Of a stretch of 44,311 nt of DNA, positions 20,925 to 39,270 are shown one piece after another. A model generated the notes under the pieces. The model searched no databases. It was given only the letters and a program-made list of their open reading frames with translations, and was not told the origin of the DNA. Both the position numbers and the translations under genes were made by a program. The DNA lies in NCBI GenBank assembly GCA_015068035.1, contig SVLI01000012.1, forward strand, positions 1-44,311, in the 5' to 3' direction. This DNA is from Oscillospiraceae bacterium (lineage in GTDB: Bacteria; Bacillota; Clostridia; Oscillospirales; Oscillospiraceae). Numbering within the stretch: the first letter of the stretch is position 1; every line of letters begins with the position of its first letter.

Positions 20925-20925
20925 C

Positions 20926-21675
20926 TCAATAGCCCTCCGGTTTTTTGAAATTCCCGACAGGGTAGTATTCCGCCATCGAAGTCTCCAGCCACTTGAGCGC
21001 ATCCACCGGGGAAAGACCCCAGTTGGTCGGGCAGGCAGAGAGGAACTCAACGAAAGTAAAGCCAAGACCCGCCTGCTGAATATCCAGCGCAGTGTGCACG
21101 GCCTTTTTCGCTTTGCGGACGTTTGCGGGGTTGTTCAGCATAACGCGCTCGACATACACGGCGCAGTCGATGGTGGAGAGCATCTCGCACATGCGAAGCG
21201 GCAGACCCGCCTGCTCCACCGTACGGCCGTCCACACAGGTGGTGGCGCGCTGGCCGATCAGCGTGGTGGGCGCCATCTGACCGCCGGTCATGCCGTAAAT
21301 GGCGTTGTTGATGAAGAAGGTGGTGAACTTCTCGCCGCGGTGCGCTGCATGGACGATCTCCGCAGTACCGATGCTGGCGAGGTCGCCATCTCCCTGATAG
21401 GTGAAGATCGGCTTGCTCAGGTCGCTGTGGACGCGGCGGATGCCGGAGGCGATCGCGGGCGCGCGGCCGTGGGTGGATTCACACATATCAACATTCATAA
21501 AGTGATGTGCGTTGATGGAGCAGCCAATCGGCACAACGCCGATGGCCTTGCCGAGCTGGCCGCGCTCCTCAAGGCACTCCATGATGATCCGGTGGGCAAT
21601 GCCGTGGGAGCAGCCGGAGCAATAGCTCGTATCCACCGGCGTCATGCCAGCCGTGGGCTGAAATACAGTTTTCAT
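20926..21675 (-). CDS. 2-oxoacid:ferredoxin oxidoreductase, beta subunit (TPP-binding)
   Basis: Thiamine-diphosphate-binding beta subunit, 249 residues. It has YCSGCSHGIAHRII near the start, then the TPP/Mg motif GDGDLASIGTAEIVHAAHRG with the closing NNAIYGMTGGQMAPTT (about 95-130). It transfers the acyl group from a 2-oxo acid to CoA with reduction of ferredoxin, or the reverse. It starts 1 base after the alpha stop, so it is translationally coupled. Confidence 0.94.
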   Translation of the reverse strand: MKTVFQPTAGMTPVDTSYCSGCSHGIAHRIIMECLEERGQLGKAIGVVPIGCSINAHHFMNVDMCESTHGRAPAIASGIRRVHSDLSKPIFTYQGDGDLASIGTAEIVHAAHRGEKFTTFFINNAIYGMTGGQMAPTTLIGQRATTCVDGRTVEQAGLPLRMCEMLSTIDCAVYVERVMLNNPANVRKAKKAVHTALDIQQAGLGFTFVEFLSACPTNWGLSPVDALKWLETSMAEYYPVGNFKKPEGY

Positions 21676-23732: not shown

Positions 23733-23840
23733 AAAAAAACAAACCGCGGCACACCACACAGGACGAAACCGCAGAATGCATCTTTTTCTTTTGGATTTCT
23801 GCCCGTTTCGTTCGTCAGCGCCGCCATGTCGCATTGTCGC

Positions 23841-23923: not shown

Positions 23924-23952
23924 TTGACACGGCGAAAAGCTTGTGCTTAAAT
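23924..23952 (+). promoter_or_regulatory. Promoter of T-box leader 1
   Basis: TTGACA (23924-23929), 17-bp spacer, TTAAAT (23947-23952). The predicted start, about 23959, is directly before T-box Stem I. Confidence 0.75.
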
Positions 23953-23959
23953 GTGAAAA

Positions 23960-24232
23960 AAGGCTGTGACGAAGACGGCCGGATCGCAAGTGTGTCTCCA
24001 GAGAGTCGGCGGGTGCTGTGAGCCGACGGCATCGCGATCCCATGCCCATCCCTTCCGAGCTGAAGGCCCGAACGCATTTTTATGGATGCAAGTAGACGCC
24101 TTACGTAGAGCCGCGTTAAGGCAAAGGACTTGTTGGAGTCTGAAGTGGTGTTCGAAACGAACGCAATTTGAGTGGTACCGCGGGTTAAAGTTTAGCTCGT
24201 CTCAAAGATTTTTGAGGCGGGTTTATTTTTTT
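23960..24232 (+). ncRNA. T-box riboswitch 1, specifier read as AUC (Ile)
   Basis: Complete tRNA-sensing leader. Stem I has the K-turn strand GACG (23968-23971), AG bulge AGAGAG (24000-24005) and distal stem GUCGGC/GCCGAC. The Stem II motif AGUAGA is at 24091. The T-box sequence UGGUACCGCG is at 24173-24182, and a terminator (CTCGTCTCAAA / TTTGAGGCGGG, then T run) at 24196-24232. The helix next to the K-turn is AAG (23972-23974) with CUU (24052-24054); the specifier lies one base before it, AUC at 24048-24050. The base after it is C rather than the common purine, which lowers certainty. UGGU fits a tRNA with discriminator A, as tRNA-Ile has. Confidence 0.9.
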
Positions 24233-24271
24233 CCCGCTTCGACAGATTCTCATTATGGGAGGTACATAGAA

Positions 24272-26572
24272 ATGGAAAACACCAGCACCGGCATGTTAAA
24301 AGAAGTTGCACTGCGTATCAAGTCCCTTCGTCTGGACTTCGGCTATTCTCCGGAACAGATGGCAGAGTTCACCGGCTTCCCGCTGGATGAATGCATCCTC
24401 TACGAGGACGGAAACGCCGATCTTCCTTTCAGCTTTATTCACAAGTGCGCAGAGCTCTTTGACGTTGAAATGATGGAGCTGCTCCAGGGCCGCGCGCCCC
24501 GTCTGAGCGGTTACACCGTCACCCGCCGCGGAGAAGGCCAGCTCACCGCAAGGGAACCCGGCATCACCATTCAGGCCATGGCGCCCCTTTTCAAAAACCG
24601 CAAGGCCGATCCCTACTGGGTGCGCTATGAATACTCCGAGGCGCTGCAGAGCGCGCCCATTGAGCAGGTCACCCACGCCGGCCAGGAGTTTGACATTGTC
24701 ATCGAAGGCTCTATGAAGATCAAAATCGGTGATCACACCGAAGTTCTCGCCCCCGGTGACAGTATTTTATATAACTCTTCCATCCCCCACGGCATGATCG
24801 CCGTTGGCGGAGCGGACTGCGTGTTCTGCGCGGTGGTTCTCGCGGAAGAGGACGCCGAGCTCATCTGGGAGCACGGCCGCATGGTGAATGCCGCTTCCCT
24901 GAAGCCCGCCGTTGAGGAGGCCGAACCCGCGAAGGTCTACCCCGACTATATGGAGAAGTTCATCCAAACCGAGACGAACGACAAGGGCGCCCCCGTTGCC
25001 GTCCACTTCTCCAATGCCGACAAATTCAACTTTGCCTTTGACGTTGTCGATGCCATTGCCGAGCGCGAACCGGACAGACTGGCCATGCTCCACATCGATC
25101 GCGAAAAGAATGAGCGCCGCTTCTCCTTCCTGCAAATGAAGAAGATGAGCGCCCGCGCCGCCAACTATTTCCGCGCCCTCGGCATCAAAAAGGGCGACCG
25201 CGTGATGCTGGTGCTGCGCCGCAACTGGGAGTTCTGGCCCATCATCGTGGGTCTGCACAAGCTGGGTGCCATCCCGATCCCCGCAACGGACCAGCTTGTT
25301 GAAAAGGATTTTGAATACCGCTTCAATGCAGCTTCCGTTGCCGCCGTGGTCTGCACCGCTTATGGCGGCTGCGCCGCGGAGGCAGAGCGTGCGCTGGAGC
25401 GTTGCCCCAGCGTGCACCTGAAAGTCATGGCCGGCGGCAGCCGCGAGGGCTGGCACGACTTTGACAGCGAATACGATATGTACTCCAGCCGCTTTAACCG
25501 TACAGAGGACAGTCCCTGCGGTGACGACACCATGCTCATGCTCTTCTCCTCCGGCACCTCCGGCTATCCCAAGGCCGTCGATCACAGCTTCAAATATCCG
25601 CTGGGCCACTATATCACCGCCCGCTTCTGGCACAATGTCGACCCCGACGGGCTGCACTTCACCATCTCCGAGACCGGCTGGGGCAAGGCGCTCTGGGGCA
25701 AGCTCTACGGTCAGTGGATGTGCGGCGCGGCAACCTTCGTGTACGACTTCGACCGCTTTGCAGCGGACGACATCATGCCCATGTTCGCGAAATACAACAT
25801 CACCAGCTTCTGCGCGCCTCCGACGATGTATCGCTTCTTCATCAAGGAAGACCTCAGCAAATACGACCTCAGCTCCATCAAGCACGCCACCACCGCGGGC
25901 GAGGCGCTCAATCCCGAGGTCTCCACACGGTTCTTCGAGGCCACCGGCCTCACCATCATGGAGGCTTTCGGCCAAACCGAGACCACACTCACCATCGGCA
26001 ACTTCGTGGGCACCAAGCCGAAGCTCGGTTCTATGGGCCGCGCAAACCCCATGTATCATGTCGAACTGATGACGCAGGACGGCGAGCTTGCCGAGGTCGG
26101 CGAAACCGGCGAGATCGTCATCTACACCGGCAACGGCGTGCCCTGCGGCCTGTTCAAGGGCTACTACAACGCCCCCGACGCCACCGCTGCCAACTGGCAC
26201 GACGATTATTATCACACAGGCGACCTTGCCTGGCGCGATGAGGACGGCTATTTCTATTATGTCGGACGCGCGGACGACGTGATCAAATCCAGCGGCTACC
26301 GCATCGGACCCTTCGAGATCGAAAGCGTCATCATGGAGCTGCCCTACGTTCTGGAATGCGGCGTCTGCGCCGCGCCGGATGAGATCCGCGGTCAGGTGGT
26401 CAAGGCCTGCATCACGCTCGTCAAGGGCACCGATGGCACGGCTGAGCTTGCCAAGGAGATTCAGGCCTACGTCAAGCAGCGCACCGCGCCCTATAAGTAT
26501 CCCCGCATCGTGGAATTCCGCGACAGTCTGCCCAAGACCATCAGCGGCAAAATCATCCGCAACCGGCTCTGA
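24272..26572 (+). CDS. HTH-cupin-acyl-CoA ligase fusion, Ile T-box controlled
   Basis: A 766-residue fusion. Residues about 10-72 form an XRE-type helix-turn-helix (RIKSLRLDFGYSPEQMAEFTG), about 115-192 a cupin barrel (HAGQEFDIVIEGSMKIKIGD, APGDSILYNSSIPHGM), and about 250-766 an AMP-forming acyl-CoA synthetase of the medium-chain (ACSM-like) branch: FSSGTSGYPK (425-434), MEAFGQTETT, HTGDLAWRDEDGYFYYVGR, GRADDVIKSSGYRIGP and a C-terminal catalytic lysine in TISGKIIRNRL. The HTH-cupin part is normally a stand-alone regulator. Start set by GGGAGG; the open frame upstream runs through the T-box RNA. The Ile specifier suggests 2-methylbutyrate as substrate (inference). Confidence 0.9.
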   Translation: MENTSTGMLKEVALRIKSLRLDFGYSPEQMAEFTGFPLDECILYEDGNADLPFSFIHKCAELFDVEMMELLQGRAPRLSGYTVTRRGEGQLTAREPGITIQAMAPLFKNRKADPYWVRYEYSEALQSAPIEQVTHAGQEFDIVIEGSMKIKIGDHTEVLAPGDSILYNSSIPHGMIAVGGADCVFCAVVLAEEDAELIWEHGRMVNAASLKPAVEEAEPAKVYPDYMEKFIQTETNDKGAPVAVHFSNADKFNFAFDVVDAIAEREPDRLAMLHIDREKNERRFSFLQMKKMSARAANYFRALGIKKGDRVMLVLRRNWEFWPIIVGLHKLGAIPIPATDQLVEKDFEYRFNAASVAAVVCTAYGGCAAEAERALERCPSVHLKVMAGGSREGWHDFDSEYDMYSSRFNRTEDSPCGDDTMLMLFSSGTSGYPKAVDHSFKYPLGHYITARFWHNVDPDGLHFTISETGWGKALWGKLYGQWMCGAATFVYDFDRFAADDIMPMFAKYNITSFCAPPTMYRFFIKEDLSKYDLSSIKHATTAGEALNPEVSTRFFEATGLTIMEAFGQTETTLTIGNFVGTKPKLGSMGRANPMYHVELMTQDGELAEVGETGEIVIYTGNGVPCGLFKGYYNAPDATAANWHDDYYHTGDLAWRDEDGYFYYVGRADDVIKSSGYRIGPFEIESVIMELPYVLECGVCAAPDEIRGQVVKACITLVKGTDGTAELAKEIQAYVKQRTAPYKYPRIVEFRDSLPKTISGKIIRNRL

Positions 26573-26603
26573 TTCTGACTTCCCTGTTGAATGGATTTAT
26601 GAC

Positions 26604-26646
26604 AAAAGACATCTCTCCGTTTTCATTTCGGAGAGATGTCTTTTTT
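26604..26646 (+). terminator. Terminator of ligase 1
   Basis: A perfect stem, AAAAGACATCTCTCCG / CGGAGAGATGTCTTTT, with a 9-nt loop and a T run, 32 bases after the stop codon. Confidence 0.94.
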
Positions 26647-26794
26647 GTTGCGGCAAGCCGATATCCGCCCGCTCTGCGTTTCCTATTTCAAATGTTTTTG
26701 CTTCGGATAAAGTATTTTGCAAAAACATGGAACTTTTTCCGTTTTTATTCGTCTGAATAGGAAAACGGCTTCAGGCCAAAAGGAGCATAGCGAA

Positions 26795-27487
26795 ATGAAA
26801 AAATGGATTGTATTTTTCCTGATCCTGTCCTGTTTGGCGGGGCTTGCTGCCTGTTCTGCAAACGACACGAATCTCGCCAAACCTCAGGAAGAAGAATCGC
26901 CCGAAGCCTATAAGGTTGAGATTGCCGACAATTATCCCATCCGAAACACACTCAAAAGCGCATATGCCGCGGGCGAACAGGTGACGATTAAATTGGACAC
27001 CATAACCGAACACTATTATAAAGTGTATGTAAACGGTGTGGAGCTGGCCATGGATACGGCTGCATCGGACTTGACTTACAGCTATTACAGCTTCACCATG
27101 CCGGAGGAAGACGTGCTCATCGAGATTGAGGATGTTTCCGTTGACATTCCCGGCGGCACCACATTTGTCGTGGATATTTGGGACCGGGAAGAGGAAGAAC
27201 GCCTTCCTTGCGACGAAGCTATTGAACTGTTTTGGGAGGACGACACCACCGAATACTATTTCAGCTGCATCAAAAGCCAGTATGTTATCGTGATGGACAA
27301 CACGGGCAGAACGGTGGACGTTGTAAGTGCTCTGCGCGAAGGACTCATCACGATCGCAGATCTGGATCATTACGGCATTGAATATTTTACGCAGCCGAAG
27401 GATGGCAACGGCGCAGTCGAGCAGCCCGACAACGCAGGCCCCGGCGATGTCATCGACGATGTTCAGCTCCTTGAAATACCTGCTTGA
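26795..27487 (+). CDS. Lipoprotein of unknown function between the two ligases
   Basis: A 230-residue secreted lipoprotein: MKKWIVFFLILSCLAGLAAC with the lipidated Cys at 20. After an acidic linker comes a beta-rich segment (EQVTIKLDTITEHYYKVYVNGVEL ... YYSFTMPEEDVLIEIE, about 68-118, quoted in parts) that resembles InlB-B or immunoglobulin-like surface modules, then a C-terminal domain of no known family. AAGGAG lies 10 bases before the ATG. The -35 box of the next promoter overlaps its stop codon and no terminator intervenes, so its transcripts may run into T-box leader 2. Any link to the branched-chain system is positional only. Confidence 0.75.
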   Translation: MKKWIVFFLILSCLAGLAACSANDTNLAKPQEEESPEAYKVEIADNYPIRNTLKSAYAAGEQVTIKLDTITEHYYKVYVNGVELAMDTAASDLTYSYYSFTMPEEDVLIEIEDVSVDIPGGTTFVVDIWDREEEERLPCDEAIELFWEDDTTEYYFSCIKSQYVIVMDNTGRTVDVVSALREGLITIADLDHYGIEYFTQPKDGNGAVEQPDNAGPGDVIDDVQLLEIPA

Positions 27488-27512
27488 CAAACGGACATAC
27501 TGCAGCTATAAT
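27484..27512 (+). promoter_or_regulatory. Consensus promoter of T-box leader 2
   Basis: TTGACA (27484-27489), 17-bp spacer, TATAAT (27507-27512): a perfect match to consensus. The -35 hexamer contains the TGA stop of the upstream lipoprotein. A loose repeat ATTCA/TGAAT with a 5-base spacer lies just downstream (27521-27535). Confidence 0.9.
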
Positions 27513-27518
27513 ATGCAT

Positions 27519-27801
27519 AATAATTCAATAAGTGAATAAAAGCATTGACGGAGAGGGTCGGAAGCCCAACGCTTCAGAGAGCCTGCGGCTGGTGAAAGCA
27601 GGCAGCGGCGGATTCCATTTGGCCTGTCACTCCCGAGCCGGAGCGCAGAAAGCGAAAGCAAGTAGAGCCTCCCGTGAAGCCGCGTCAGAGCCAAGGCACT
27701 TGATGGAGTGCCGAGAGAGGCGTCCGTTTGGGCGCAACCAGGGTGGTACCGCGATATAGTTTTTATGTCGTCCCCGGAAAATTTTCCGGGGACGATTTTT
27801 T
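27519..27801 (+). ncRNA. T-box riboswitch 2, specifier read as GUC (Val)
   Basis: Complete T-box leader. K-turn strand GACG (27547-27550), AG bulge AGAGAG (27576-27581), distal stem CCUGC/GCAGG with GGCUGGUGAAA between, Stem II motif AGUAGA at 27661, T-box UGGUACCGCG at 27744-27753, and a 14-bp terminator (TCGTCCCCGGAAAA / TTTTCCGGGGACGA, T run) at 27768-27801. The helix by the K-turn is GAG (27551-27553) with CUC (27630-27632); one base before it is GUC (27626-27628) followed by the expected purine A. UGGU requires discriminator A, as in tRNA-Val. Confidence 0.93.
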
Positions 27802-27843
27802 GTTTCCGGACTTCATCCCAATCAACTACAGGAGGAACAAATC

Positions 27844-30123
27844 ATGCTGAAATCAACAGGTCTGGAATTCAAAATCAACGAAATCACCGCGCGCATCCGC
27901 GAGCTGCGCGGCATTCTCGGTTACAGCCAGGCTGACATGGCCGCAAAGCTTTCCATGGACGAGGATGAATACATCTCTTATGAATCCGGCGAGGAGGAAC
28001 TGAACTTCGCGTTCCTTTACACCTGCGCGCAGGTGCTCGATGTTGACGTCACCGAGCTTATCGAGGGTGTCACGCCCCGTTTGAGTAACTACATTCTGAC
28101 CCGCAGCGGCGAGGGTCGCCGCGTGGAACAGGCGCACGGCATGACCTATTACAATCTGGCCTACAAGTTCCGTGACCGGGAGGCCGAGCCGCTTTTTGTC
28201 CACGCCGAATTCAGCGAAAGTGCCCAACTTCAGCCGATCGAGACCACCGTTCACGAAGGACAGGAGTTTGATATTGTCATCCGCGGCTATTTGAAGCTGC
28301 AGATTGGCGCGCACACCGAGATTCTCGGCCCGGGCGATACGATTTTCTATAACTCCTCCATCCCGCACGGCATGATCGCCACCAACGGCGGCGACTGTGA
28401 CTTTTACGCCATCGTGCTTGAGCCCGAGAGCGGCAGCGAGAAAAAGCCCGCCGCCGTTCCCGCCATCACTGCCACACGCCAGTCCGGCATTTCCCGCATT
28501 TGGGAGCGCTTCATCACGCCCATCGAGGATGGCAGCGGCCGTCTGAAAAGCATCAGCTTCCAGAACACGGACCGCTTCAACTTCGCCTTTGATATCGTGG
28601 ACGCGCTCGGCGAGAAGCAGCCGGATAAACTGGCCATGCTCCACATCGGACGCGATAAGCAGGAAACGCGCCTCACTTTCGGACAGATGAAGAAGATGAG
28701 CGCCCGCGCGGCCAATTATTTCCGCTCGCTCGGCATCAAAAAGGGCGACCGCGTGATGCTTGTGCTCCGCCGGAACTGGCAGTTCTGGCCCATTCTGATC
28801 GGGCTGGAAAAGCTCGGCGCCATCGCGATCCCCTCTGTGGATCAGTTGCTTGAAAAAGATTATGCCTATCGCTTTGAAGTCGCCGGCGTCACCGCCATCA
28901 TCTGCACGGCGGACGGAGACTCCACTACGCAGTGCCTCCCCGCCATTGAAAAATACGGCAAGATCAGCGTCAAGGTCACCACAAACGGCAAGGTGGACGG
29001 CTGGCATTGCTTCGACGAGGAATATGATATGTATTCCAGCCGTTTTGCCCGCACGGACGAGAGCATCTGCGGAAACGACCCCATGATGATGATCTTCACC
29101 TCCGGCTCCACCGGCTATCCCAAGCTGGCTGCCCACAACTGCAAATATCCCCTCGGCCACTTTGTCACCGCGCGCTACTGGCACTGTGTGGATCCCGACG
29201 GGCTGCACCTCACCATCTCCGACACTGGCTGGGCGAAGGCCATGTGGGGCAAGCTGTTCGGACAATGGCTTTGCGAGGCCGCCGTTTTCGTCTATGACTT
29301 CGACCGCTTCTCCGCAAACGATATTATGCCGATGTTCGCCAAATACAACATCACGACTTTCTGCGCGCCACCCACGATGTACCGTTTCTTCATCAAGGAG
29401 GATCTCAGTAAATACGACCTCAGCTCCATCAAGCATGCCTCCACCGCCGGCGAAGCCATGAACCCCGAGGTGTTTAACCGTTTCCGTGAGGCAACGGGAC
29501 TTTCCATCATGGAGGCTTTCGGCCAAACAGAGACAACCGCCGTGGTTGGCAACTTTGTCGGCATGGCACCAAGAATCGGCTCCATGGGCAAACCCAACCC
29601 GCTTTACAGGGTCGAGCTACTGACCGCCGAGGGCGAGCCTGCCCCGGACGGTGAATCCGGCGAAATCTGCATCTACGTCGGAGACGGCGCGCCCTGTGGC
29701 CTCTTCGCCGGCTACTACGAGAACGAAAAGGACACGAGCGCCGTCTGGCACGACGGTTATTATCACACCGGTGACCTTGCCTGGCGCGATGAGGACGGCT
29801 ATCTCTGGTACGTCGGCCGCGCGGATGACCTGATCAAATCCTCCGGCTACCGCATCGGGCCTTTTGAGATTGAAAGTGTCATCATGGAGCTGCCCTATGT
29901 TCTGGAATGCGGTGTCACCTCCGCGCCGGACGAAATCCGCGGTCAGGCAGTCAAGGCCTGCATTGTGCTCGTCAAAGGAAAACAGGGCTCTGAAGAGCTC
30001 AAGAAAGAGATTCAGAACTACGTCAAGAAGCGCACCGCGCCTTACAAGTATCCGCGCATCGTGGAATTCTACGAAGAACTCCCCAAAACCGCCAGCGGCA
30101 AAATCCTCCGCCGGATGCTCTGA
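27844..30123 (+). CDS. HTH-cupin-acyl-CoA ligase fusion, Val T-box controlled
   Basis: A 759-residue paralogue of the gene at 24272 with the same architecture: XRE-type HTH (about 12-65, ITARIRELRGILGYSQADMA), cupin (about 118-200, HEGQEFDIVIRGYLKLQIGA), ACSM-like AMP-forming ligase (about 240-759) with FTSGSTGYPK, MEAFGQTETT, GRADDLIKSSGYRIGP and TASGKILRRML. Long stretches are nearly identical to copy 1, so they arose by duplication; they differ most in the HTH and the segment joining cupin and ligase. AGGAGG precedes the ATG. The Val specifier suggests isobutyrate as substrate (inference). The HTH could make it autoregulatory. Confidence 0.9.
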   Translation: MLKSTGLEFKINEITARIRELRGILGYSQADMAAKLSMDEDEYISYESGEEELNFAFLYTCAQVLDVDVTELIEGVTPRLSNYILTRSGEGRRVEQAHGMTYYNLAYKFRDREAEPLFVHAEFSESAQLQPIETTVHEGQEFDIVIRGYLKLQIGAHTEILGPGDTIFYNSSIPHGMIATNGGDCDFYAIVLEPESGSEKKPAAVPAITATRQSGISRIWERFITPIEDGSGRLKSISFQNTDRFNFAFDIVDALGEKQPDKLAMLHIGRDKQETRLTFGQMKKMSARAANYFRSLGIKKGDRVMLVLRRNWQFWPILIGLEKLGAIAIPSVDQLLEKDYAYRFEVAGVTAIICTADGDSTTQCLPAIEKYGKISVKVTTNGKVDGWHCFDEEYDMYSSRFARTDESICGNDPMMMIFTSGSTGYPKLAAHNCKYPLGHFVTARYWHCVDPDGLHLTISDTGWAKAMWGKLFGQWLCEAAVFVYDFDRFSANDIMPMFAKYNITTFCAPPTMYRFFIKEDLSKYDLSSIKHASTAGEAMNPEVFNRFREATGLSIMEAFGQTETTAVVGNFVGMAPRIGSMGKPNPLYRVELLTAEGEPAPDGESGEICIYVGDGAPCGLFAGYYENEKDTSAVWHDGYYHTGDLAWRDEDGYLWYVGRADDLIKSSGYRIGPFEIESVIMELPYVLECGVTSAPDEIRGQAVKACIVLVKGKQGSEELKKEIQNYVKKRTAPYKYPRIVEFYEELPKTASGKILRRML

Positions 30124-30188
30124 TCGACGGTCCGGCAGGATTGAAATTCCCGCTTTCTTCCGCGAACTTTATATTTCATCCTCAACAC

Positions 30189-30228
30189 AAAAAAGAGAGG
30201 CGGCATCTGCATGCAGATGCCGCCTCTC
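30189..30228 (-). terminator. Terminator of the Leu T-box operon (shared convergent site)
   Basis: A 34-bp perfect palindrome starting GAGAGGCGGCATCTGC (30195-30228) with a T6 run on the minus strand. It lies about 115 bases after the oxidoreductase stop and 70 bases after the convergent ligase; on the plus strand no T tract follows. Confidence 0.9.
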
Positions 30229-30344
30229 TCCTATTCTGTCGGGACGCATTCCGACCTGTTTCGGAAAACCGGTCTTTCCGTAAATGCCGAATGCTTCGGC
30301 GCTTCTTTACAAAACCGGCAAATTACTCCCTCTGTGCTTTTGAC

Positions 30345-33300
30345 TCAGAGTTCTCCCATCTTGCGGTACTTCTCATAGCGCCGCGCAGCGTCCTCACTGC
30401 CGGCAGCGAAGAGCGTTTCCGCATTCTCCGGGAAGCTGAGGCGGAGCGAGGCATAACGGGTCTCCCCTTCCAGGAACGCCGTATAATCCAGCGTCGGCGC
30501 CTTGCTGTCAAGCTGCATAGGGTGCTCTTTCCGCGGGTCGTAGCGGTAAAGCAGCCAATAGCCGCTGTCCACCGCGCGCTTCATCTCCGCCTGCACATTC
30601 TGCATGCCGGCCTTGATGCCGTGGGCGGTGCAGGGCGTGTAGGCAATGATGACGGAGGGGCCGTCGTAAGCCTCGGCCTCTTTCAGCGCCTTGACGAGCT
30701 GATTGGGGTCTGCGCCCATGGCGACCTGCGCAACATAGACGTTTCCATAGGTCATCATGATTGCGCCCAGATCCTTCTTGCGGCTGCGCTTGCCGCTGGA
30801 GGCAAACTGCGCCACCGCGCCGATAGGCGTTGCCTTGCTGCTCTGGCCGCCGGTGTTGGAATAGACCTCCGTATCAATGACGAAGACATTGACGTTTTCG
30901 CCACTTGCGATCACATGGTCAAGGCCGCCGAAGCCGATGTCATAGGCCCAACCGTCACCGCCGTACATCCAGAAGGTCTTTTTGGCAAGCTGGTCGCGGG
31001 ATGCAAGGATTTCTTTCGCTGCCTCTCCGCCATCTGTCTCCAGCGCCGCGATCAGCGCATCAGATGCCTTGCGGCTGGCGTCAAAATCATCAAATGCGGC
31101 CAGATAATCCTCACAGGCGGTCTTCAGTTCTCCGCTTGCGGACGCTGCCAGCGCTTCGATTTTTTGCTTCACACGCGCACGCTGCTGGCGTACGGAGAGA
31201 TAGAGGCCGTAAGCAAGCTCCGCGTTGTTCTCAAAGAGGCTGTTTGTCCAGGCGGGGCCAAAGCCGCGCTCGTTTTTGGTGTAAGGGATGCCGGGCATTG
31301 CCGCGCCCCAGGCCTGCGAGCAGCCGGTGGCATTCGCCCAATAGACGCGCTCACCGAAAAGCTGCGTCATCAGCTTGGCATAGGGCGTTTCGCCGCAGCC
31401 GGCACAGGCGGCAGAGAACTCCAGCAGCGGTTGGCGGAACTGGCTGCCCTTGACCGTCCAGCGATCAAAGATTTCGCCTTTGTCCGACACGGAGAGCGCC
31501 GCGTTCCAGCGCTGCTTCTTCTCCTCAGTGAGAACGGCAGGCTTCATCTGCAGCGCGCCCGCGGGGCAGCATTGCACGCAGGAGCCGCAGCCGGTGCAGT
31601 CATAGTCGGAAACCGCCAGCATATAGTGCAGGCCCTTGGCAGCCGCATTGCCGGGGATGGTCTGCATCCCATCCGGCAGAGCCGCCTTTTCCTCGTCATT
31701 GAGCAGGAACGGCCGGATGACCGCGTGGGGGCAGACGAAGGAGCAGCGGTTGCACTGGATGCATTTGGCCGCTTCCCAGGCCGGCACGTGCACGGCGATG
31801 CCGCGCTTCTCATAAGCGGTGAGGCCCAGCTCTATGCCGCCATCCACGTAGTTATGGAAAGCGCTGACCGGCAGGTCATCGCCCTTCTGGCGGTTGACGG
31901 GAATGAGCAGATTCTTCACCACATCGGGCAAAGTTTCATCAATGGGGAAAGGATCGTTCGGAAGCGATGCCCAGGATTCCGGCACCGTCTCTTCACGGAC
32001 GCCCTGCGCGCCGGTGTCAATGGCAGCAATGTTTTTCGCCACCACCTCGTCACCCTTGGTGAAGTAGGTTCTGCGCGCAGCATCCTTCATGGCCTCAAGC
32101 GCAACTTCCGGCGCGACCATGCTTGCCACGGCGAAAAAGGCCGCCTGCAAAACGGTGTTGGTGTGGCTGCCAAGGCCAAGGCGCTCAGCAATTGCAACGG
32201 CATCAATGGTATAGAAGCGGATTTTGTTCTCCGCCAAATAGTGCTTTACGCGGTTGGGGAGCCAGGCATCCAGCTCTGCGCCGTGATAACGGCAGTTGAG
32301 CAGGAACACGCCGCCCGGCTTGACCTCCTGCACCATATCGTACTGGTCGATATAGCTCTCATTATGGCACGCGACAAAATCCGCGCGCTTCACATAATAG
32401 CTGCTGCGGATCGGCTTTTCAGAAAAGCGCAGATGGGATTTGGTAACGCCAAAGGATTTCTTGGCGTCGTACTCAAAATATGCCTGCGCGTGCAGCTTTG
32501 CCTCCGCAGAGATGATCTGCACCGTGTTCTTGTTCGCGCCGACGGTTCCGTCACCGCCGAGACCCCAGAACTTGCAGCAATAGGTCTCGTCCCCCGCCTC
32601 CGGCGTGGGAACAACGTGCAGAGACCGGTGTGTCACGTCATCCTCAATGCCGATGGTGAAGCTGCGGATGGGTTCCTCCGAAGCGAGGTTATCGAACACG
32701 GCCAGGATCTGGCTGACGTCGGTATCCTTGGAGCTCAGCCCGTAGCGGCCGCCGATGATGCGGATCATCCAGCCCGCGCCGGCACAGGCCGTGCAGACAT
32801 CCTGATAAAGCGGCTCGCCCGCACTGCCCATCTCCTTGCAGCGGTCGAGCACCGCGATGCGCTGCACCGTGGCGGGAATGGCGCGGAAAAGATAGTCCAC
32901 GGCAAAGGGGCGGAACAGATGCACCTGCACAAAGCCGGTTTTGCGGCCGTGGGCGTTGAGATAGTCCACCGCCTCGCAGATCGCGCCGGAAACGCTGCCC
33001 ATCGCGATCACGACGTCGGTGGCATCAGGCGCGCCGTAATAGTTGAACAGATGGTAGTCTCTGCCCGTGATGGCATTGATCTCACGGAAATAGCGCTCCA
33101 CCGTGTCCGGCAGGGCGTCGTAGAAGCTGTTGTTCGCCTCGCGCACCTGGAAGTAGACATCCGGATTCTGCACCGTATTGCGCAGGACGGGATGCTCCGG
33201 GTTAAGCGCCGACGCGCGGAAGCGTTCGAGTGCATCCCGGTCGAGCAGCGCGGTCAACCGGTCACGCTCCATCATCTCGGCGGTGTTGATCTCATGGGAG

Positions 33301-33827
33301 GTGCGGAATCCGTCGAAGAAATGCAGAAACGGAATCCGGCTTTCCACCGCGGCAAGGTGCGCCACACCGGCGAGGTCAAGGATTTCCTGCACGCTGGCCG
33401 TGCTCAGCATGGCAAAGCCGGTGTTGCGGCAGCTCATCACGTCGCTGTGATCGCCAAAAATGCTCATGGCGTGGGTGCCGACCGTGCGCGCGGCAACGTG
33501 CAGCACGCAGGGCAGCCGCTCGCCCGCGATGCGGTGCAGCACCGGCAGCATCAGCATAAGACCCTGACTGGAGGTGAAGCTGGTCGCGAGTGCACCGGCC
33601 TGCAGCGCACCATGCACCGCAGAGATGGCGCCGGCTTCCGACTGCATCTCCGTCAGCGTGACGGTCTGACCGAAGATATTCTTGCGGCCGTTGGCGCTCC
33701 ACACGTCCGTATGCTCCGCCATGGGGCTGGAGGGCGTGATGGGATAGATCGCCGCGATCTCGCTGAAATCATAGGCAACATGGGCCGCAGCCTCGTTGCC
33801 GTCCATTGTTACAATCTGTTTTGCCAT
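30345..33827 (-). CDS. nifJ: Pyruvate:ferredoxin oxidoreductase, single-chain type
   Basis: A 1160-residue homodimeric-type 2-oxoacid:ferredoxin oxidoreductase combining all subunits in one chain: N-terminal domain with AAIYPITPSSPMAEHTD (about 25-40) and the substrate-arginine region HVAARTVGTHAMSIFGDHSD, gamma-like domain (GLGGDGTVGANKN), a two-cluster ferredoxin insert (CIQCNRCSFVCP, CTGCGSCVQCCP, about 690-760), and the C-terminal TPP domain (CAGCGETPYAKL, GGDGWAYDIGFGGLDH, NTGGQSSKATP). Pyruvate is the expected substrate. Its place at the end of a Leu-T-box operon after a branched-chain aminotransferase suggests a function in 2-oxoacid supply. It follows ilvE by 68 bases with GAGGAAAA as ribosome-binding site. 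Confidence 0.95.
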   Translation of the reverse strand: MAKQIVTMDGNEAAAHVAYDFSEIAAIYPITPSSPMAEHTDVWSANGRKNIFGQTVTLTEMQSEAGAISAVHGALQAGALATSFTSSQGLMLMLPVLHRIAGERLPCVLHVAARTVGTHAMSIFGDHSDVMSCRNTGFAMLSTASVQEILDLAGVAHLAAVESRIPFLHFFDGFRTSHEINTAEMMERDRLTALLDRDALERFRASALNPEHPVLRNTVQNPDVYFQVREANNSFYDALPDTVERYFREINAITGRDYHLFNYYGAPDATDVVIAMGSVSGAICEAVDYLNAHGRKTGFVQVHLFRPFAVDYLFRAIPATVQRIAVLDRCKEMGSAGEPLYQDVCTACAGAGWMIRIIGGRYGLSSKDTDVSQILAVFDNLASEEPIRSFTIGIEDDVTHRSLHVVPTPEAGDETYCCKFWGLGGDGTVGANKNTVQIISAEAKLHAQAYFEYDAKKSFGVTKSHLRFSEKPIRSSYYVKRADFVACHNESYIDQYDMVQEVKPGGVFLLNCRYHGAELDAWLPNRVKHYLAENKIRFYTIDAVAIAERLGLGSHTNTVLQAAFFAVASMVAPEVALEAMKDAARRTYFTKGDEVVAKNIAAIDTGAQGVREETVPESWASLPNDPFPIDETLPDVVKNLLIPVNRQKGDDLPVSAFHNYVDGGIELGLTAYEKRGIAVHVPAWEAAKCIQCNRCSFVCPHAVIRPFLLNDEEKAALPDGMQTIPGNAAAKGLHYMLAVSDYDCTGCGSCVQCCPAGALQMKPAVLTEEKKQRWNAALSVSDKGEIFDRWTVKGSQFRQPLLEFSAACAGCGETPYAKLMTQLFGERVYWANATGCSQAWGAAMPGIPYTKNERGFGPAWTNSLFENNAELAYGLYLSVRQQRARVKQKIEALAASASGELKTACEDYLAAFDDFDASRKASDALIAALETDGGEAAKEILASRDQLAKKTFWMYGGDGWAYDIGFGGLDHVIASGENVNVFVIDTEVYSNTGGQSSKATPIGAVAQFASSGKRSRKKDLGAIMMTYGNVYVAQVAMGADPNQLVKALKEAEAYDGPSVIIAYTPCTAHGIKAGMQNVQAEMKRAVDSGYWLLYRYDPRKEHPMQLDSKAPTLDYTAFLEGETRYASLRLSFPENAETLFAAGSEDAARRYEKYRKMGEL

Positions 33828-33895
33828 TTGAATTTTCCTCTTTTATTCAGAGTCCGGTATTTGCTGAGAAACCCGGTAATTCGGTTTCTGTTTCT

Positions 33896-34960
33896 TTACA
33901 CGGGGCAGATCCAGCCGAACTTATCCTCGGCGCGGCCCCACTGGATGCCGGTGAGCTTGTCGTAAAGCTCCTGCGATGTCTCGCCGATCTTGCCGCCGCC
34001 GATCTCATAATCCACGCCCTTGTAGGACAGAACGCCCACAGGAGAGACAACCGCCGCGGTGCCGCAGCCCCAGGCCTCTTCCAGCGTTCCGTTCTGCGCG
34101 GCCTCAATCAGTTCCTCGGCGCTGATGCGGCGCTCCACGGGCTCCTTGCCCTCGGCGCGGAGCAGCTCCAGAATGCTCTTGCGGGTGATGCCGGGCAGGA
34201 TGGAGCCGTTGAGCATCGGGGTGACGATCTGGCCGTTGATTTTGAACATGACGTTCATGGCGCCGACTTCCTCAATGTATTTGCGCTCCACACCGTCAAG
34301 CCACAGCACCTGGGAATAGCCCTTCTCCTCGGCACGGTCGCCCGCGCGGACAGATGCGCCGTAGTTGCCGCCGCACTTGGCCTCGCCGGTGCCGCCGCGC
34401 ACAGCGCGGACGTCCTCGTCCTCGATCATGATCTTAACGGGCGTCAGACCGCCGGGATAATAGCTGCCGGAGGGAGACAGGATGATGAGGAAACGGACAT
34501 GGGAAGAACCGTGCACGCCGAGCTTGGCATCGTCGCCAATCATAAACGGACGGATATACAGGCTGGTGCCCTCGCTGTACGGCACCCAATCGGCATCTAT
34601 CTCGATCAGCTTTTTGAGCGCTTCGATCGCAAAATCCACATCCAGCTCGGGCAGACCCATGCGGACTGCGGAGCGGTTCATGCGCAGGAAATTCTCTCTC
34701 GGGCGGAAGAGCTGCACGCCGCCGTCTGCGCGGCGATAGGCCTTCAGGCCCTCAAAGATCTCCGCGCCGTAGTGCAAAACGGAGGACGCGGGGCTGATGG
34801 AAAGATCGCCGAACGGAACGATCTCCGCATCGTGCCAGCCAATGCCCTTATCCCAAAGCATCACAAACATATGGTCGGTAAAAACTTTCCCGAAGCCGAG
34901 CTTGCTCTCGTCCGTCGGCTTAACTGCGGGATTGCTGTTCTTCGTGATTTTGATTTCCAT
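33896..34960 (-). CDS. ilvE: Branched-chain amino acid aminotransferase
   Basis: Fold-type IV PLP enzyme interconverting Ile, Val or Leu with their 2-oxo acids, using glutamate/2-oxoglutarate. The 354-residue length and large-chain form fit the BCAT group: FTDHMFVMLWDKGIGWHDAEIVPFG near residue 27 (in parts), HYGAEIFEGLKAYRRADG, and the PLP lysine in GEAKCGGNYGAS (about residue 195), then LWLDGVERKYIEEVGAMN and the C-terminal GCGTAAVVSPVG. AAGGAGG upstream. It lies 36 bases after the TIM-ligase gene in the Leu T-box operon, which supports a branched-chain role. Confidence 0.96.
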   Translation of the reverse strand: MEIKITKNSNPAVKPTDESKLGFGKVFTDHMFVMLWDKGIGWHDAEIVPFGDLSISPASSVLHYGAEIFEGLKAYRRADGGVQLFRPRENFLRMNRSAVRMGLPELDVDFAIEALKKLIEIDADWVPYSEGTSLYIRPFMIGDDAKLGVHGSSHVRFLIILSPSGSYYPGGLTPVKIMIEDEDVRAVRGGTGEAKCGGNYGASVRAGDRAEEKGYSQVLWLDGVERKYIEEVGAMNVMFKINGQIVTPMLNGSILPGITRKSILELLRAEGKEPVERRISAEELIEAAQNGTLEEAWGCGTAAVVSPVGVLSYKGVDYEIGGGKIGETSQELYDKLTGIQWGRAEDKFGWICPV

Positions 34961-34996
34961 AGTAATTTCCTCCTTGATCTATCGTAAAATGTTTTC

Positions 34997-37477
34997 TTAT
35001 TTCTTCAGACCCAGTTTTTCCACAGCCTGCTCGCGCATCTTGTACTTCAAAACTTTTCCGGCGGCGTTCATCGGGAACGCATCCACAAAATCAATATACT
35101 TCGGAACTTTGTGGCGCGCAAGACTTGCTGTGATAAACTTACGCATTTCCGGCTCGGAAACGCTGCCCGCTTCCTTCAGAATGATGCAGGCCATGGCTTC
35201 CTCGCCGTATTTTTCATCCGGCACGCCGATCACCTGCACGTCCTTTACGCCGGGATGCGTATAGATAAACTCCTCAATCTCCTTGGGATAGAGGTTCTCG
35301 CCGCCGCGGATGATCATATCTTTGAGTCTGCCGGTGATGCGGTAGCATCCGTTCTCATCCTTGCAGGCCAGATCGCCGGAGTGGAGCCAGCCGTCCGCAT
35401 CGATGGTGTCCCGCGTGGCCTCGGGCATCTTGTAATAGCCCTTCATGGTGTTGTAGCCGCGGGCGCAGAACTCTCCGTTAACGCCGACGCCGACCTCCTC
35501 CCCCGTTTCGGGATCGATGACCTTGCACTGCACATGCGGGAAGGCATAGCCGACCGTCTCCGTGCGAAGCATCAGATCGTCCGTCCAGCTGCTCATGGTG
35601 TTACCCGGCGCGCACTCAGTCTGTCCGTAAACGCTGACGATGCCGGTCATATTCATCTCGTCCGGCTGGGCAGCTCTGCGCATCAGCTCCGGCGGGCAAC
35701 CGGAACCGGCCATGATGCCGGTGCGCATATGGGAAAAGTCCGTCTTCCGGTAATCGGGATGGTTAAACATGGCAATAAACATCGTCGGCACACCGTTAAA
35801 GCAGGTAATGTGCTCCTGATGGATGCAGGCAAGAGAGGATTTTGCAGAGAAGTACGGCATGGGGCACATCGTAGCACCATGCGTCATCGAGGCCGTCATA
35901 GAAAGGGTCATTCCGAAGCAATGGAACATCGGCACCTGAATCATCATCCGGTCCGCCGTGGAAAGCCCCATGCGGTCGCCGATGCACTTGCCGTTGTTGA
36001 CCACGTTATAGTGCGTCAGCATTACGCCTTTGGGGAAGCCGGTCGTGCCGGAGGTATACTGCATGTTGCACACATCGTCCGGCCGCACACGGGCCGCCAC
36101 GCGGGCAAGCTCTTCCTCGGGCACCATCTCGGCGCGGGCCATGGCCTCGTCAAAGGTGAGGCAGCCCGGCTGGCGGAAGCCAACCGTGATCACGTTGCGG
36201 AGGAAGGGCAGCTTTTTGCAATGGAGCGCTTTGCCGGGCTGGCTGGAGGCGATCTCCGGGCAGAGTTCATTGATGATGCCGGCATAATCGCTATCCAAAC
36301 TGCTGTCAATCATCACAAGCGTATGCGTATCGCTCTGCCGGAGCAGATATTCCGCCTCGTGAATCTTATAGGCGGTGTTCACGGTGACGAGAACCGCGCC
36401 GAGCTTGGTGGTCGCCCAGAAAGTGATGTACCACGCTGGCACATTGGTGGCCCAGATGGCAACCTTGCTGCCGGCCTTGACGCCGAGACTCATCAGCGCG
36501 CGGGCAAAATTATCCACATCCTCGCGGAACTGCTCATAGGTGCGGGTGTAATCGAGCGTAGTATATTTGAAGGCATACTGGTCGGGGAATTCCTCCACCA
36601 TGCGGTCAAGCACCTGCGGGAAGGTCAGGTTAATCAGCTCGTCCTTTTTCCAGACGTACTGTCCCGTGCCGTCGTGGTTGGGATAGAGCACGCGCTTTTT
36701 GCCCCTGGGGCTCTCAAAACGGTGCATATAGTTGACAAAGTGCGGAAAGATGATCTCATAATCCGTCAGCTCTTCCATCCACTCCGGTTTCCACTCCAGA
36801 GAAATGAAACCGTCATAGTCAACGGAAGAGAGCGCACGCATGAAATCCGCCATGGGGAGGGTACCTTCTCCGACGAGTTCAAAGCTCTCATCGTCATTGC
36901 TGTCGCGCAGATGCACATGCTTGACATAGGCGCCAAGGTTCGTGATGGTCTGCGCGGGCGTCTCGCCCTTTTCCCGATAGGGATGGTGCACGATCCAGAG
37001 CACGGCAAGCTGGTCGCAGGCAAAGTGGTTCATCAGATCGCGCAGACGCACCGTGTCGGCAAAAATGCCGGTTGTTTTGACGAGGATGGTGATCCCCCTC
37101 TCCTCCGCCACCGGGAGCAACTGCTCCAAAACAGCGGTGACGTGGGCAACATCGTCCTCTTTGGCGGCAACGGCAACATAGGGGCTGCGCAGGTCCGCCG
37201 TCAGCTCAATCAGTTCCCGGATGCGGCCAACCGTCGCCTCGTCCGCAGTGGAGAGGTCATAAGCGCTGTCCATGCAGGGAATGCTCAAGTTCTTCTCTCG
37301 AAGTGTGCGGAGCGTGGACACCACGGCGTACTTATGGAAAGGTCCGCCCTTGCCGATCAGTTCCGGTGAGCGGAAAACATCATAAAGCTCAATGCCGGAA
37401 AAGTTCATTTCCTGCGCGGCGTCCATGCATTCGCTCCAGCTCATGTCCCAGCCGCGGGTGGAAAAGGAGAGATTCAT
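34997..37477 (-). CDS. TIM-barrel / AMP-forming acyl-CoA ligase fusion
   Basis: An 826-residue two-domain protein. Residues 1-255 are a xylose-isomerase-like TIM barrel (AP-endonuclease-2/sugar-isomerase superfamily) with candidate metal-site segments FSGIELYDVF, WIVHHPY (162-167), KHVHLRDSN (186-194) and FISLEWKPEW (224-233). Residues about 280-826 are an acyl-CoA synthetase with YTSGTTGFPKG (474-484), SVYGQTECAPG, GWLHSGDLA, GRLKDMIIRGGENLYP and the lysine of NAAGKVLKYKM. This differs in type from the two HTH-cupin ligases. It overlaps the LeuA-like stop by 4 bases (ATGA). The Leu T-box suggests isovalerate or a related acid; what the barrel adds is unknown. Confidence 0.88.
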   Translation of the reverse strand: MNLSFSTRGWDMSWSECMDAAQEMNFSGIELYDVFRSPELIGKGGPFHKYAVVSTLRTLREKNLSIPCMDSAYDLSTADEATVGRIRELIELTADLRSPYVAVAAKEDDVAHVTAVLEQLLPVAEERGITILVKTTGIFADTVRLRDLMNHFACDQLAVLWIVHHPYREKGETPAQTITNLGAYVKHVHLRDSNDDESFELVGEGTLPMADFMRALSSVDYDGFISLEWKPEWMEELTDYEIIFPHFVNYMHRFESPRGKKRVLYPNHDGTGQYVWKKDELINLTFPQVLDRMVEEFPDQYAFKYTTLDYTRTYEQFREDVDNFARALMSLGVKAGSKVAIWATNVPAWYITFWATTKLGAVLVTVNTAYKIHEAEYLLRQSDTHTLVMIDSSLDSDYAGIINELCPEIASSQPGKALHCKKLPFLRNVITVGFRQPGCLTFDEAMARAEMVPEEELARVAARVRPDDVCNMQYTSGTTGFPKGVMLTHYNVVNNGKCIGDRMGLSTADRMMIQVPMFHCFGMTLSMTASMTHGATMCPMPYFSAKSSLACIHQEHITCFNGVPTMFIAMFNHPDYRKTDFSHMRTGIMAGSGCPPELMRRAAQPDEMNMTGIVSVYGQTECAPGNTMSSWTDDLMLRTETVGYAFPHVQCKVIDPETGEEVGVGVNGEFCARGYNTMKGYYKMPEATRDTIDADGWLHSGDLACKDENGCYRITGRLKDMIIRGGENLYPKEIEEFIYTHPGVKDVQVIGVPDEKYGEEAMACIILKEAGSVSEPEMRKFITASLARHKVPKYIDFVDAFPMNAAGKVLKYKMREQAVEKLGLKK

Positions 37478-38889
37478 ACCTCGCCCTCCTCATAAACAAT
37501 TTTATTCACCGCGCCGAGGTAGGCACGGATGGAAGAGCCGATCACGTCCGTGGAAATTCCGCGTCCGGAATAGATCTTTCCGCCGGAGCGCAGACGTACC
37601 ACCGTTTCGCCCATCGCTTCGCGGCCCTCGGTAACGGCCTGAATCTGGAAATCGTCCAGTTCGTAATGATGGCCGATGATCTGCTCGATAGCAAGGAAAG
37701 AGGCATCCACGGGGCCATCGCCAAGGCAAACACTCTCGAGCAGCTGCTCATTCTTGCGAAGCTGCATATGGCAGGTGGCGGAAATGGAGTTGCCGGAGGT
37801 GACCACATAATTTTCCAAACGATAGGTCGGCGGCACCTGCAGCGCCGCGGAGGCGACGATGGCATCCAGTTCGCGCGCACCGACGCTCTCTTTCTTTTCC
37901 GCAATACGGCAAAAGGCCTCATAAACCTTCGCCCCGTCCTCCTCGCTGAGATCGTAGCCCAGTTTGGCAGCCGCCTTGATCACGGCGCTGAGATCGTCAT
38001 GCACCGTGAGCTCCACATCGCCGTTGGACTCACGCACGCCGTTGTCAAAGGCGGAAGACTTGCTGCGGTTGGTTTCGCACATCCAGCGGATCTGTCCGAT
38101 GGTGCGCTGCAGCTCCGTTGTGCGCACACCGCAGCGGGCGTCAAAGCCGTCGCCCTTGGACTGCAAAATGCGCGCAAGCTTTTCCAGAGACGCGGTCATC
38201 TCCCCGCAGGCAGCAACCTTCACCTCATCAGCGCCGGCGCGGATGGCGCTCACAGCGCAGGAATCGGCCATGTAAAGCGCGTTGGAGCAGCGCACGCCGA
38301 GCCGGATATGTTCGGGAATCGCGGCGCGGATATCCGCGATAAACTGATAACACTCCTCCGGCAGCATCGTGCCCGCCGTGTCACAGATCGTGACAATGTC
38401 ACAGCCGGCCTCCACCGCCGCAGCGATGGCCTCACGCAAAAACTCCGGCTCGCTGCGGGAGGCATCCTCCGCTACAAACTCCACTTCGCAGCCGCAGGTC
38501 TTGCACAGCGCCGTCATCTCCCGGATCATTTCCAGCACGGCGGCGGGCTTTTTGCGGCAGAGATACTCCATCTGCACCGTGCTGACCGGTGCGACCACCT
38601 GCAAACGGGCGTTCTTCGCTTCGCTGAGCGCATTCCAGGTCAGTTCCACGCTCTCCGACTCAGAGAGCGTAACCGGAACGGCGAGCACGCTGCCCTTGAT
38701 GGCAGAGGCCAGCGACTTGATCAGCAGGCTGTCCGTCCGGCGGTTCTCAATCCGTCCCGCCTCGATGACAGAAACGCCGAGCTTATCCAGAAGCTTGGCC
38801 AGTTCGATCTTCTCGCGGAAGCTGAGGGAGTACCCCTCCGTTGTGCCGGAACGGTTAATCGTGATGTCGCTGATCGAGATGTTACGCAT
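37474..38889 (-). CDS. LeuA-family protein with degenerate active site and intact regulatory domain
   Basis: A 471-residue homologue of 2-isopropylmalate/citramalate synthases. Overall fold markers remain (KLGVSVIEAG, VEFVAEDASRSEPEFL, DIVTICDTAGTMLPEE), but the catalytic RDGEQ is replaced by NRSGT (residues 12-16), the metal-binding HxH motif by RCSNA (200-204), and GERAGN by unrelated residues. The C-terminal LeuA regulatory/dimerisation domain (about 356-463) is well kept: CLGDGPVDASF (388-398) and GRGISTDVIGSS (442-453). It is unlikely to be an active synthase; it may sense leucine or act on another substrate. Start MRNISISD has AAGGAG upstream. First gene behind T-box 3. Confidence 0.88.
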   Translation of the reverse strand: MRNISISDITINRSGTTEGYSLSFREKIELAKLLDKLGVSVIEAGRIENRRTDSLLIKSLASAIKGSVLAVPVTLSESESVELTWNALSEAKNARLQVVAPVSTVQMEYLCRKKPAAVLEMIREMTALCKTCGCEVEFVAEDASRSEPEFLREAIAAAVEAGCDIVTICDTAGTMLPEECYQFIADIRAAIPEHIRLGVRCSNALYMADSCAVSAIRAGADEVKVAACGEMTASLEKLARILQSKGDGFDARCGVRTTELQRTIGQIRWMCETNRSKSSAFDNGVRESNGDVELTVHDDLSAVIKAAAKLGYDLSEEDGAKVYEAFCRIAEKKESVGARELDAIVASAALQVPPTYRLENYVVTSGNSISATCHMQLRKNEQLLESVCLGDGPVDASFLAIEQIIGHHYELDDFQIQAVTEGREAMGETVVRLRSGGKIYSGRGISTDVIGSSIRAYLGAVNKIVYEEGEV

Positions 38890-38942
38890 TGTGGTTTTCT
38901 CCTTTTCTGCATTGGAATACGCATCTGCATATAGACAGTAAC

Positions 38943-39235
38943 AAAAAATCCCCAAAGCCGACTTTGCAGCTTCAGGGACGAAATGTGTTTCCGCGTTACC
39001 ACCCTGATTATTACCCCTTCGCAGGGAATAATCACTCTCGGACTCAAACAAGTCCATGGCCTGTTAACGGGGCCGACCGGGTCAAACTACTGAAAAGCGC
39101 TTTCGCGCCCCGTTCGCAAGACCTGCTCGGGAGGCAGATCACCATTGTGGCCTTCGGTATCGGCTCTCACCATGCGCCGACTCTCTGAAACGCTCCAACC
39201 ACGGCAAAACTCCGTCATCGCATTTGAAAAATATT
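38943..39235 (-). ncRNA. T-box riboswitch 3, specifier read as CUG (Leu)
   Basis: Complete T-box leader on the minus strand. K-turn strand GACG (39216-39213), AG bulge AGAGAG (39186-39181), distal stem GUCGGC/GCCGAU, Stem II AGUAG (39091-39087), Stem III GGACUUGUUUGAGUCC, T-box UGGUAACGCG (from 39001 down), and an 11-bp terminator with GU pairs followed by T6 (38943-38976). The helix by the K-turn is GAG (39212-39210) with CUC (39133-39131); one base before it the specifier is CUG (39137-39135), followed by C. UGGU fits the discriminator A of the tRNA-Leu(CAG) at 44185. It controls the LeuA-like gene and operon downstream. Confidence 0.92.
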
Positions 39236-39241
39236 GTAGTT

Positions 39242-39270
39242 ATTAAACCATTTTCACCCGGCTTTGTCAA
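39242..39270 (-). promoter_or_regulatory. Promoter of T-box leader 3
   Basis: TTGACA (minus strand of 39265-39270), 17-bp spacer, TTTAAT (minus strand of 39242-39247). Confidence 0.85.

Follow-up and report, generated by a model that had tools for sequence, protein, structure and literature searches.

The conversion of branched acids to valine (Val), isoleucine (Ile) and leucine (Leu) in the rumen was described in work of 1966-1971 cited in PMC7356843, and isobutyrate, 2-methylbutyrate or isovalerate are reported to give rise to Val, Ile or Leu in rumen bacteria or methanogens (PMC7356843, PMC10658910, PMC2812497). The passages of these papers that deal with reductive carboxylation infer it from labelling, nutrition or genome gaps, whereas here the same reactions are predicted from genes for which control by the tRNA of each amino acid is proposed. 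Among characterized enzymes that activate such acids, Staphylococcus aureus MbcS acts on 2-methylbutyrate and isobutyrate, poorly on isovalerate and undetectably on acetate (PMC10026030), and Macs of Methanosarcina acetivorans favours 2-methylbutyrate (PMC10455477). In this study, we describe three T-box leaders and the genes that follow them in a window of 44,311 nucleotides, which is the whole of contig SVLI01000012.1 (C5) in the draft genome (1.94 Mb, 17 contigs) of an Oscillospiraceae bacterium (GCA_015068035.1) that is likely a gut bacterium. The leaders share Stem I, the specifier, the UGGU T-box and the terminator/antiterminator with known members of the family (RF00230), and differ in placement, as they stand before branched-acid ligases and near 2-oxoacid:ferredoxin oxidoreductases, an arrangement that we did not find in the open-access literature. 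The main text of the 2008 T-box census (PMC2494555) uses none of the words oxidoreductase, ferredoxin and acyl, and the system as a whole was not found described in the open-access (PubMed Central, PMC) literature, subscription papers being outside that search. The island very probably makes Ile, Val and Leu by reductive carboxylation of 2-methylbutyrate, isobutyrate and isovalerate, with the three T-boxes gating its branches.

The leaders comprise the following elements:

23924..23952, plus strand: promoter-like site of the Ile leader, TTGACA-17-TTAAAT (from the sequence)
23957..24232, plus strand: T-box leader 1 including its terminator (about 24195-24232; terminator fold); RF00230 match at 23957-24207 (+), 91.1 bits, E 4e-19
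24048..24050, plus strand: specifier AUC (Ile), by Rfam alignment and motif parser
27484..27512, plus strand: promoter-like site of the Val leader, TTGACA-17-TATAAT (from the sequence)
27536..27801, plus strand: T-box leader 2 including its terminator (about 27768-27801; terminator fold); RF00230 match at 27536-27778 (+), 81.3 bits, E 1.4e-16
27626..27628, plus strand: specifier GUC (Val), by Rfam alignment and motif parser
38943..39227, minus strand: T-box leader 3 including its terminator (about 38943-38979; terminator fold); RF00230 match at 38971-39227 (-), 96.7 bits, E 1.5e-20
39135..39137, minus strand: specifier CUG (Leu), by Rfam alignment and motif parser
39242..39270, minus strand: promoter-like site of the Leu leader, TTGACA-17-TTTAAT (from the sequence)

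An initial annotation, made from the sequence alone, had called three full T-box leaders within 15.3 kb and suggested an RF00230 covariance search. This search matched all three (81-97 bits), with specifiers on Ile, Val and Leu codons, and each leader also has a promoter-like site and a terminator. The three T-box leaders are genuine, as the E-values exclude chance; only the Leu leader passed the Rfam gathering score of 93, a threshold that alone would miss the other two. The Rfam alignment, made without knowledge of the claimed specifiers AUC, GUC and CUG, placed them identically, in the contexts AUC-C-CUUC-CGAGC, GUC-A-CUCC-CGAGC and CUG-C-CUCC-CGAGC, respectively. The base that follows a T-box specifier is usually a purine, and in two of the three leaders it is C, a small departure. 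The adjoining helix does covary as first proposed, over 4 bp and not 3 (GAAG/CUUC in one leader, GGAG/CUCC in two). Each leader ends in a U-tailed terminator (segment fold -23.8 to -31.8 kcal/mol) that overlaps an antiterminator (-11.5 to -12.3), and in the predicted folds of all three the two structures are mutually exclusive.

The T-box sequence contains UGGU in every leader, which had been taken to fit tRNAs with discriminator A. This holds for tRNA-Leu(CAG), at 44185-44272 (+) of the window (A73), and for tRNA-Val(GAC), which lies elsewhere in the genome; no tRNA-Ile was among those that ARAGORN identified in 30 scanned loci, the genome having 42 tRNA matches. The tRNA-Leu(CAG) gene, whose anticodon fits the CUG specifier, sits at the end of the contig that bears the Leu leader. 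Five further T-boxes in the draft genome, which has eight, served as a control: their specifiers are GCC (Ala), GUC (Val), UGG (Trp), UUC (Phe) and UGC (Cys), and the genes behind them are alanine-aminotransferase-like, valS, TrpX-like, pheS and cysE-cysS, respectively. Since specifier and downstream gene agree in 5/5 cases, the reading rule is sound in this genome; the alanine-aminotransferase-like and TrpX-like genes score under their NCBIfam cut-offs.

Behind and beside the leaders lie the following genes:

20394..20925, minus strand: 2-oxoacid:ferredoxin oxidoreductase gamma, start not fixed (PF01558, 139.7 bits)
20926..21675, minus strand: 2-oxoacid:ferredoxin oxidoreductase beta (PorB_KorB 93 bits, below cut-off; thiamine pyrophosphate (TPP) domain)
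21677..22750, minus strand: VorB-type 2-oxoacid:ferredoxin oxidoreductase alpha, divergent from LigI (NF005507, 472.9 bits, cut-off 399)
24272..26572, plus strand: LigI, cupin plus AMP-forming acyl-CoA ligase, 766 amino acids (aa), predicted 2-methylbutyrate-CoA ligase (Pfam, NCBIfam, alignment)
27844..30123, plus strand: LigV, helix-turn-helix (HTH)-cupin-AMP-forming ligase, 759 aa, predicted isobutyrate-CoA ligase (Pfam, NCBIfam, alignment)
30345..33827, minus strand: pyruvate:ferredoxin oxidoreductase (PFOR) family protein (TIGR02176, 1672 bits)
33896..34960, minus strand: branched-chain aminotransferase (NF009897, 466.9 bits, above its cut-off of 307)
34997..37477, minus strand: TIM-barrel plus AMP-forming acyl-CoA ligase, 826 aa, predicted isovalerate-CoA ligase (Pfam, NCBIfam)
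37474..38889, minus strand: LeuA-like protein, 471 aa, lacking the canonical motifs for catalysis and metal binding and retaining the leucine-binding LeuA_dimer domain (Pfam, alignments)

Thus the Leu leader is followed by four tightly spaced genes, for the LeuA-like protein, the TIM-barrel ligase, the aminotransferase and the PFOR family protein, the first two of which overlap by 4 bases; contig C13 has a second PFOR frame, with 54-60% identity to the copy in this unit. In the proposed route, an AMP-forming ligase (LigI, LigV or the TIM-barrel ligase) would activate a branched acid, a 2-oxoacid:ferredoxin oxidoreductase (VorB-type, possibly the PFOR paralogue for Leu) would run in the direction that adds CO2, and the aminotransferase would then yield the amino acid, with each leader switching on its own branch by antitermination when its tRNA is uncharged. 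The earlier suggestion that the ligases, oxidoreductases and aminotransferase supply Ile, Val and Leu is supported and can be refined to reductive carboxylation, with a LeuA-like gene at the head of the Leu unit. Its description of a single island needs amending, as there are three separate units and not one operon, and the VorB-type genes, which run divergently, lack a T-box in the window.

LigI follows the Ile leader and LigV the Val leader, and the two proteins are 63% identical. Both contain Pfam cupin and AMP-forming ligase domains; an HTH domain is found by Pfam in LigV alone, and the N-terminus of LigI can be aligned to that part of LigV. The top NCBIfam match of both is MbcS (NF047394; 410.9 and 403.9 bits, cut-off 850), which shares their ligase domain; unlike MbcS, the two cupin-fused paralogues seem to split 2-methylbutyrate and isobutyrate between them. 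The best solved relative of LigI is 3etc (617.9 bits; next structure 343.6), which we take to be M. acetivorans Macs. It carries the same GWGK and FGQTE motifs as LigI, and its aligned chain spans the ligase part only, from LigI residue 250.

The ordinary pathway was not found in the draft genome. IlvD and IlvB had no match, and IlvC only a 23.8-bit fragment. The sole aconitase-family protein scores 65.6 bits for LeuC against a cut-off of 560 and was rejected as LeuC, being a hydratase by NF008503 (1080 bits, cut-off 641); similarly, the sole LeuB-like match (28 bits) was rejected as LeuB, being an isocitrate dehydrogenase (633 bits, cut-off 335). Intact LeuA was not found either, as HMGL-like matches are confined to two frames, that of the LeuA-like protein and a 1154-aa frame matched in part. 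The same searches were positive in 14/14 control genomes, with LeuB above its cut-off in 9/14, and one genome of the same genus (90% complete) is likewise without ilvB, ilvC and ilvD. Within an order-wide set of 147 genomes, of which 104 have ligase matches and from the best of which 30 loci were fetched, this genome among them, ilvC occurs in 8/49 genomes with a full-length cupin ligase and in 61/98 without one (Fisher 9e-8, kinship ignored). The bit cut for a full-length ligase was chosen after the list was in view: 47 genomes at >=1000 bits (8 with ilvC) became 49 on adding two at 975-978 bits.

We then compared specifiers with ligase families among relatives. Scanning GTDB genomes yielded 55 loci, of which 50 hold relatives at >=57% identity; gut or rumen sources are named in many of the titles. 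Counts here and in the order-wide set rest on draft genomes, many of them related to one another. From 103 extracted ligases, 15 were removed, namely 14 shorter than 550 aa (including L085_4127, which reads GUA) and one distant L056 paralogue, leaving a tree of 88 rows. Labels from the motif parser, which misread or missed several diverged leaders, were kept only for AUC, GUC or GUA at a score >=6; rows with a T-box motif and no accepted label were re-read from Rfam alignments (L071, L072, L073, L075, L082, L083, L092, L095 and L056), and L035 stayed unreadable. The resulting 43 Ile rows and 25 Val rows are separated by one change on the tree (branch support 99), while shuffled labels need 20.5 changes on average and none of 500 shuffles came as low. 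Val rows with GUC and Val rows with GUA occupy different parts of the tree, such that the codon shifted and the amino acid stayed the same. Most of the remaining 20 rows, which have no readable specifier, are without a T-box motif, three are cut off upstream, and L035 holds the unresolved T-box. The Ile-Val-Leu triad of T-boxes was read in this genome and 11 others. A VorB homologue is encoded downstream of the ligase in the same orientation in 15 of the 50 loci and divergently in 8; in the other 27 it is missing or falls beyond the sequence fetched. The initial proposal, in which each leader is tuned to a single branched-chain amino acid, is supported by the conservation of the specified amino acid per gene family in relatives together with the absence of the ordinary pathway from the draft genome.

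Residue 471 is the only position in residues 240-766 that is fully fixed between the two groups. It is Gly in 43/43 Ile rows and Ala in 25/25 labelled Val rows, or 37/37 rows of the Val clade once 12 placed by the tree are included; LigI and 3etc carry Gly here, and LigV carries Ala at the corresponding residue 464. We had predicted in writing an AUC specifier and Gly for the other ligase in each of 13 genomes, and found both in 13/13. Twelve of these ligases stand first in a tandem pair and had their upstream half cut off in the fetched loci; their C-terminal parts were included there and were unexamined when the prediction was written. The ligase of G125 is on another contig. Residue 439, which looked diagnostic in the tree rows, failed in these 13 ligases and was rejected. 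From the specifiers, Gly would be expected where the substrate is the larger 2-methylbutyrate and Ala where it is the smaller isobutyrate. Residue 471 belongs to a GW[G/A]K motif directly before a Trp that we equate with Macs Trp259, through a Lys256-Cys298 link that we presume 3etc to contain and that sets the presumed numbering. Trp259 is reported to be critical for substrate binding (PMC10455477).

Several observations weigh against a pathway of this kind under T-box control. At 404-411 bits, LigI and LigV fall under the MbcS equivalog cut-off of 850 and are relatives, not members; the VorB-type genes are without a T-box in the window; and the genome is 94.87% complete. Among other genomes, ilvC is kept in the 8/49 with a full-length ligase and is also absent from 37/98 without one. 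Rfam gave no T-box in L016, where most of the island is present, or ahead of LigV in L032 and L034, and L017 and several other LigV loci have none by the parser alone; furthermore, for 4/30 LeuA-like genes the 900 bases upstream contain no T-box motif. Finally, the close relative L009 has no LigV at this place, between flanks about 94-95% identical. One branch can thus be missing in a close relative, in which about 220 bp (L009:7106-7326) stand in place of the following segment:

27409..30343, plus strand: promoter, Val T-box and LigV (comparison with L009)

The Val cassette missing from L009 resembles a discrete module. L016 and L017 are horse-faeces genomes with the ligases, VorB, the LeuA-like protein, the TIM-barrel ligase and the aminotransferase, in which no T-box was found.

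The LeuA-like protein is found in 30/147 order genomes, this one counted, 27 of them with a full-length ligase and 3 with ilvC. At all 30 loci, the 1.5 kb fetched downstream contain a TIM-barrel ligase match in the same orientation. Upstream of the gene, a T-box motif occurs within 900 bases at 26/30 loci, the window's counted, and 26/26 read Leu, as CUC or CUG (21 by parser, with L116 by parser alone on a weak core, and 5 from Rfam: L103, L119, L121, L125 and L127). The protein shares the HMGL-like barrel and the leucine regulatory domain (PF08502, 103.5 bits) of 2-isopropylmalate synthase LeuA and differs in its active site, where LRDGEQ and HCHND of solved LeuA structures are replaced by INRSGT and RCSNA. 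We take the Arg of LRDGEQ to be catalytic, its Asp to bind metal and the HxH histidines to be metal ligands. Among 120 homologues, the metal Asp is present in 0/120 and His in 1/120 at the first site and 0/120 at the second; among the 30 order loci, one has Arg-Asp at the N-terminal site and one has His at the second site. Such LeuA-like proteins without canonical motifs form a large family (P0001-P0120, L099-L128).

Our best guess about this protein, held at a little under even confidence, is that it is a leucine sensor for the neighbouring ligase, in which a protein no longer catalytic would bind leucine and act on the TIM-barrel ligase encoded after it. This is favoured because leuB and leuC were not found in the genome, leaving a working LeuA without an outlet. 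It could instead be an active enzyme with new chemistry, which we consider unlikely, if worth taking seriously: much of the barrel is conserved, with 138 positions across barrel and leucine domain >=97% identical in the 120 proteins, and Arg occupies the catalytic Arg position in 6/120 homologues and 8/30 order loci. However, the RDG motif near the start and the pair of metal His (HxH) are each found in 0/150 rows, with the positions variable, while GDG of the leucine domain is present in all 120 homologues and in 29/30 order loci.

For the island as a whole, the top match to MbcS, which makes acyl-CoA starters for fatty acids (PMC10026030), raises the possibility that the ligases supply the synthesis of branched-chain membrane fatty acids, as in S. 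aureus, and that the T-boxes merely report shortage. We regard this as very improbable given that Ile and Val are read separately by the two ligase families, that in 23/50 loci a VorB homologue is found either behind the ligase or divergent from it, that an aminotransferase is part of the Leu unit, and that ilvBCD are absent. Degradation of branched-chain amino acids for energy, with the aminotransferase, oxidoreductase and ligase running backwards, would draw on enzyme kinds that presumably also work in amino acid fermentation, and is slightly more improbable still: T-boxes turn genes on under amino acid scarcity, AMP-forming ligases consume ATP, and the genome searches found no other route to Ile, Val and Leu. 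Synthesis from branched acids thus stays our preferred account of the island.

Two further open reading frames (ORFs), neither with a Pfam or NCBIfam match, lie among these genes. The first, at 23019-23834 (-) between VorB and LigI, encodes a P-loop-like GHFGSGKTE protein and recurs beside the ligase in many relatives; the second, at 26717-27487 (+) between LigI and the Val T-box, is lipoprotein-like and 74% identical in L009.

Collectively, we tentatively propose, as a combination somewhat more likely to fail in one of its parts than to hold throughout, that a complete acid-to-amino-acid pathway replaced ilv/leu in many gut Clostridia, with three acid-CoA ligases gated by the charging of three tRNAs, a single Gly/Ala switch that sets 2-methylbutyrate apart from isobutyrate, and a dead LeuA retained as the leucine-sensing subunit of the isovalerate ligase. 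If true, leucine would be sensed at two levels, the RNA responding to tRNA charging and the protein to free leucine. The locus would supply genes and controls for the rumen pathway described in the 1960s, and its RNA specifiers would be built-in labels naming the likely product of each otherwise ambiguous ligase, which would open the substrates, the Gly/Ala switch and the sensor derived from LeuA to direct testing. These genes would also provide markers for gut bacteria that may depend on the branched acids of their neighbours.

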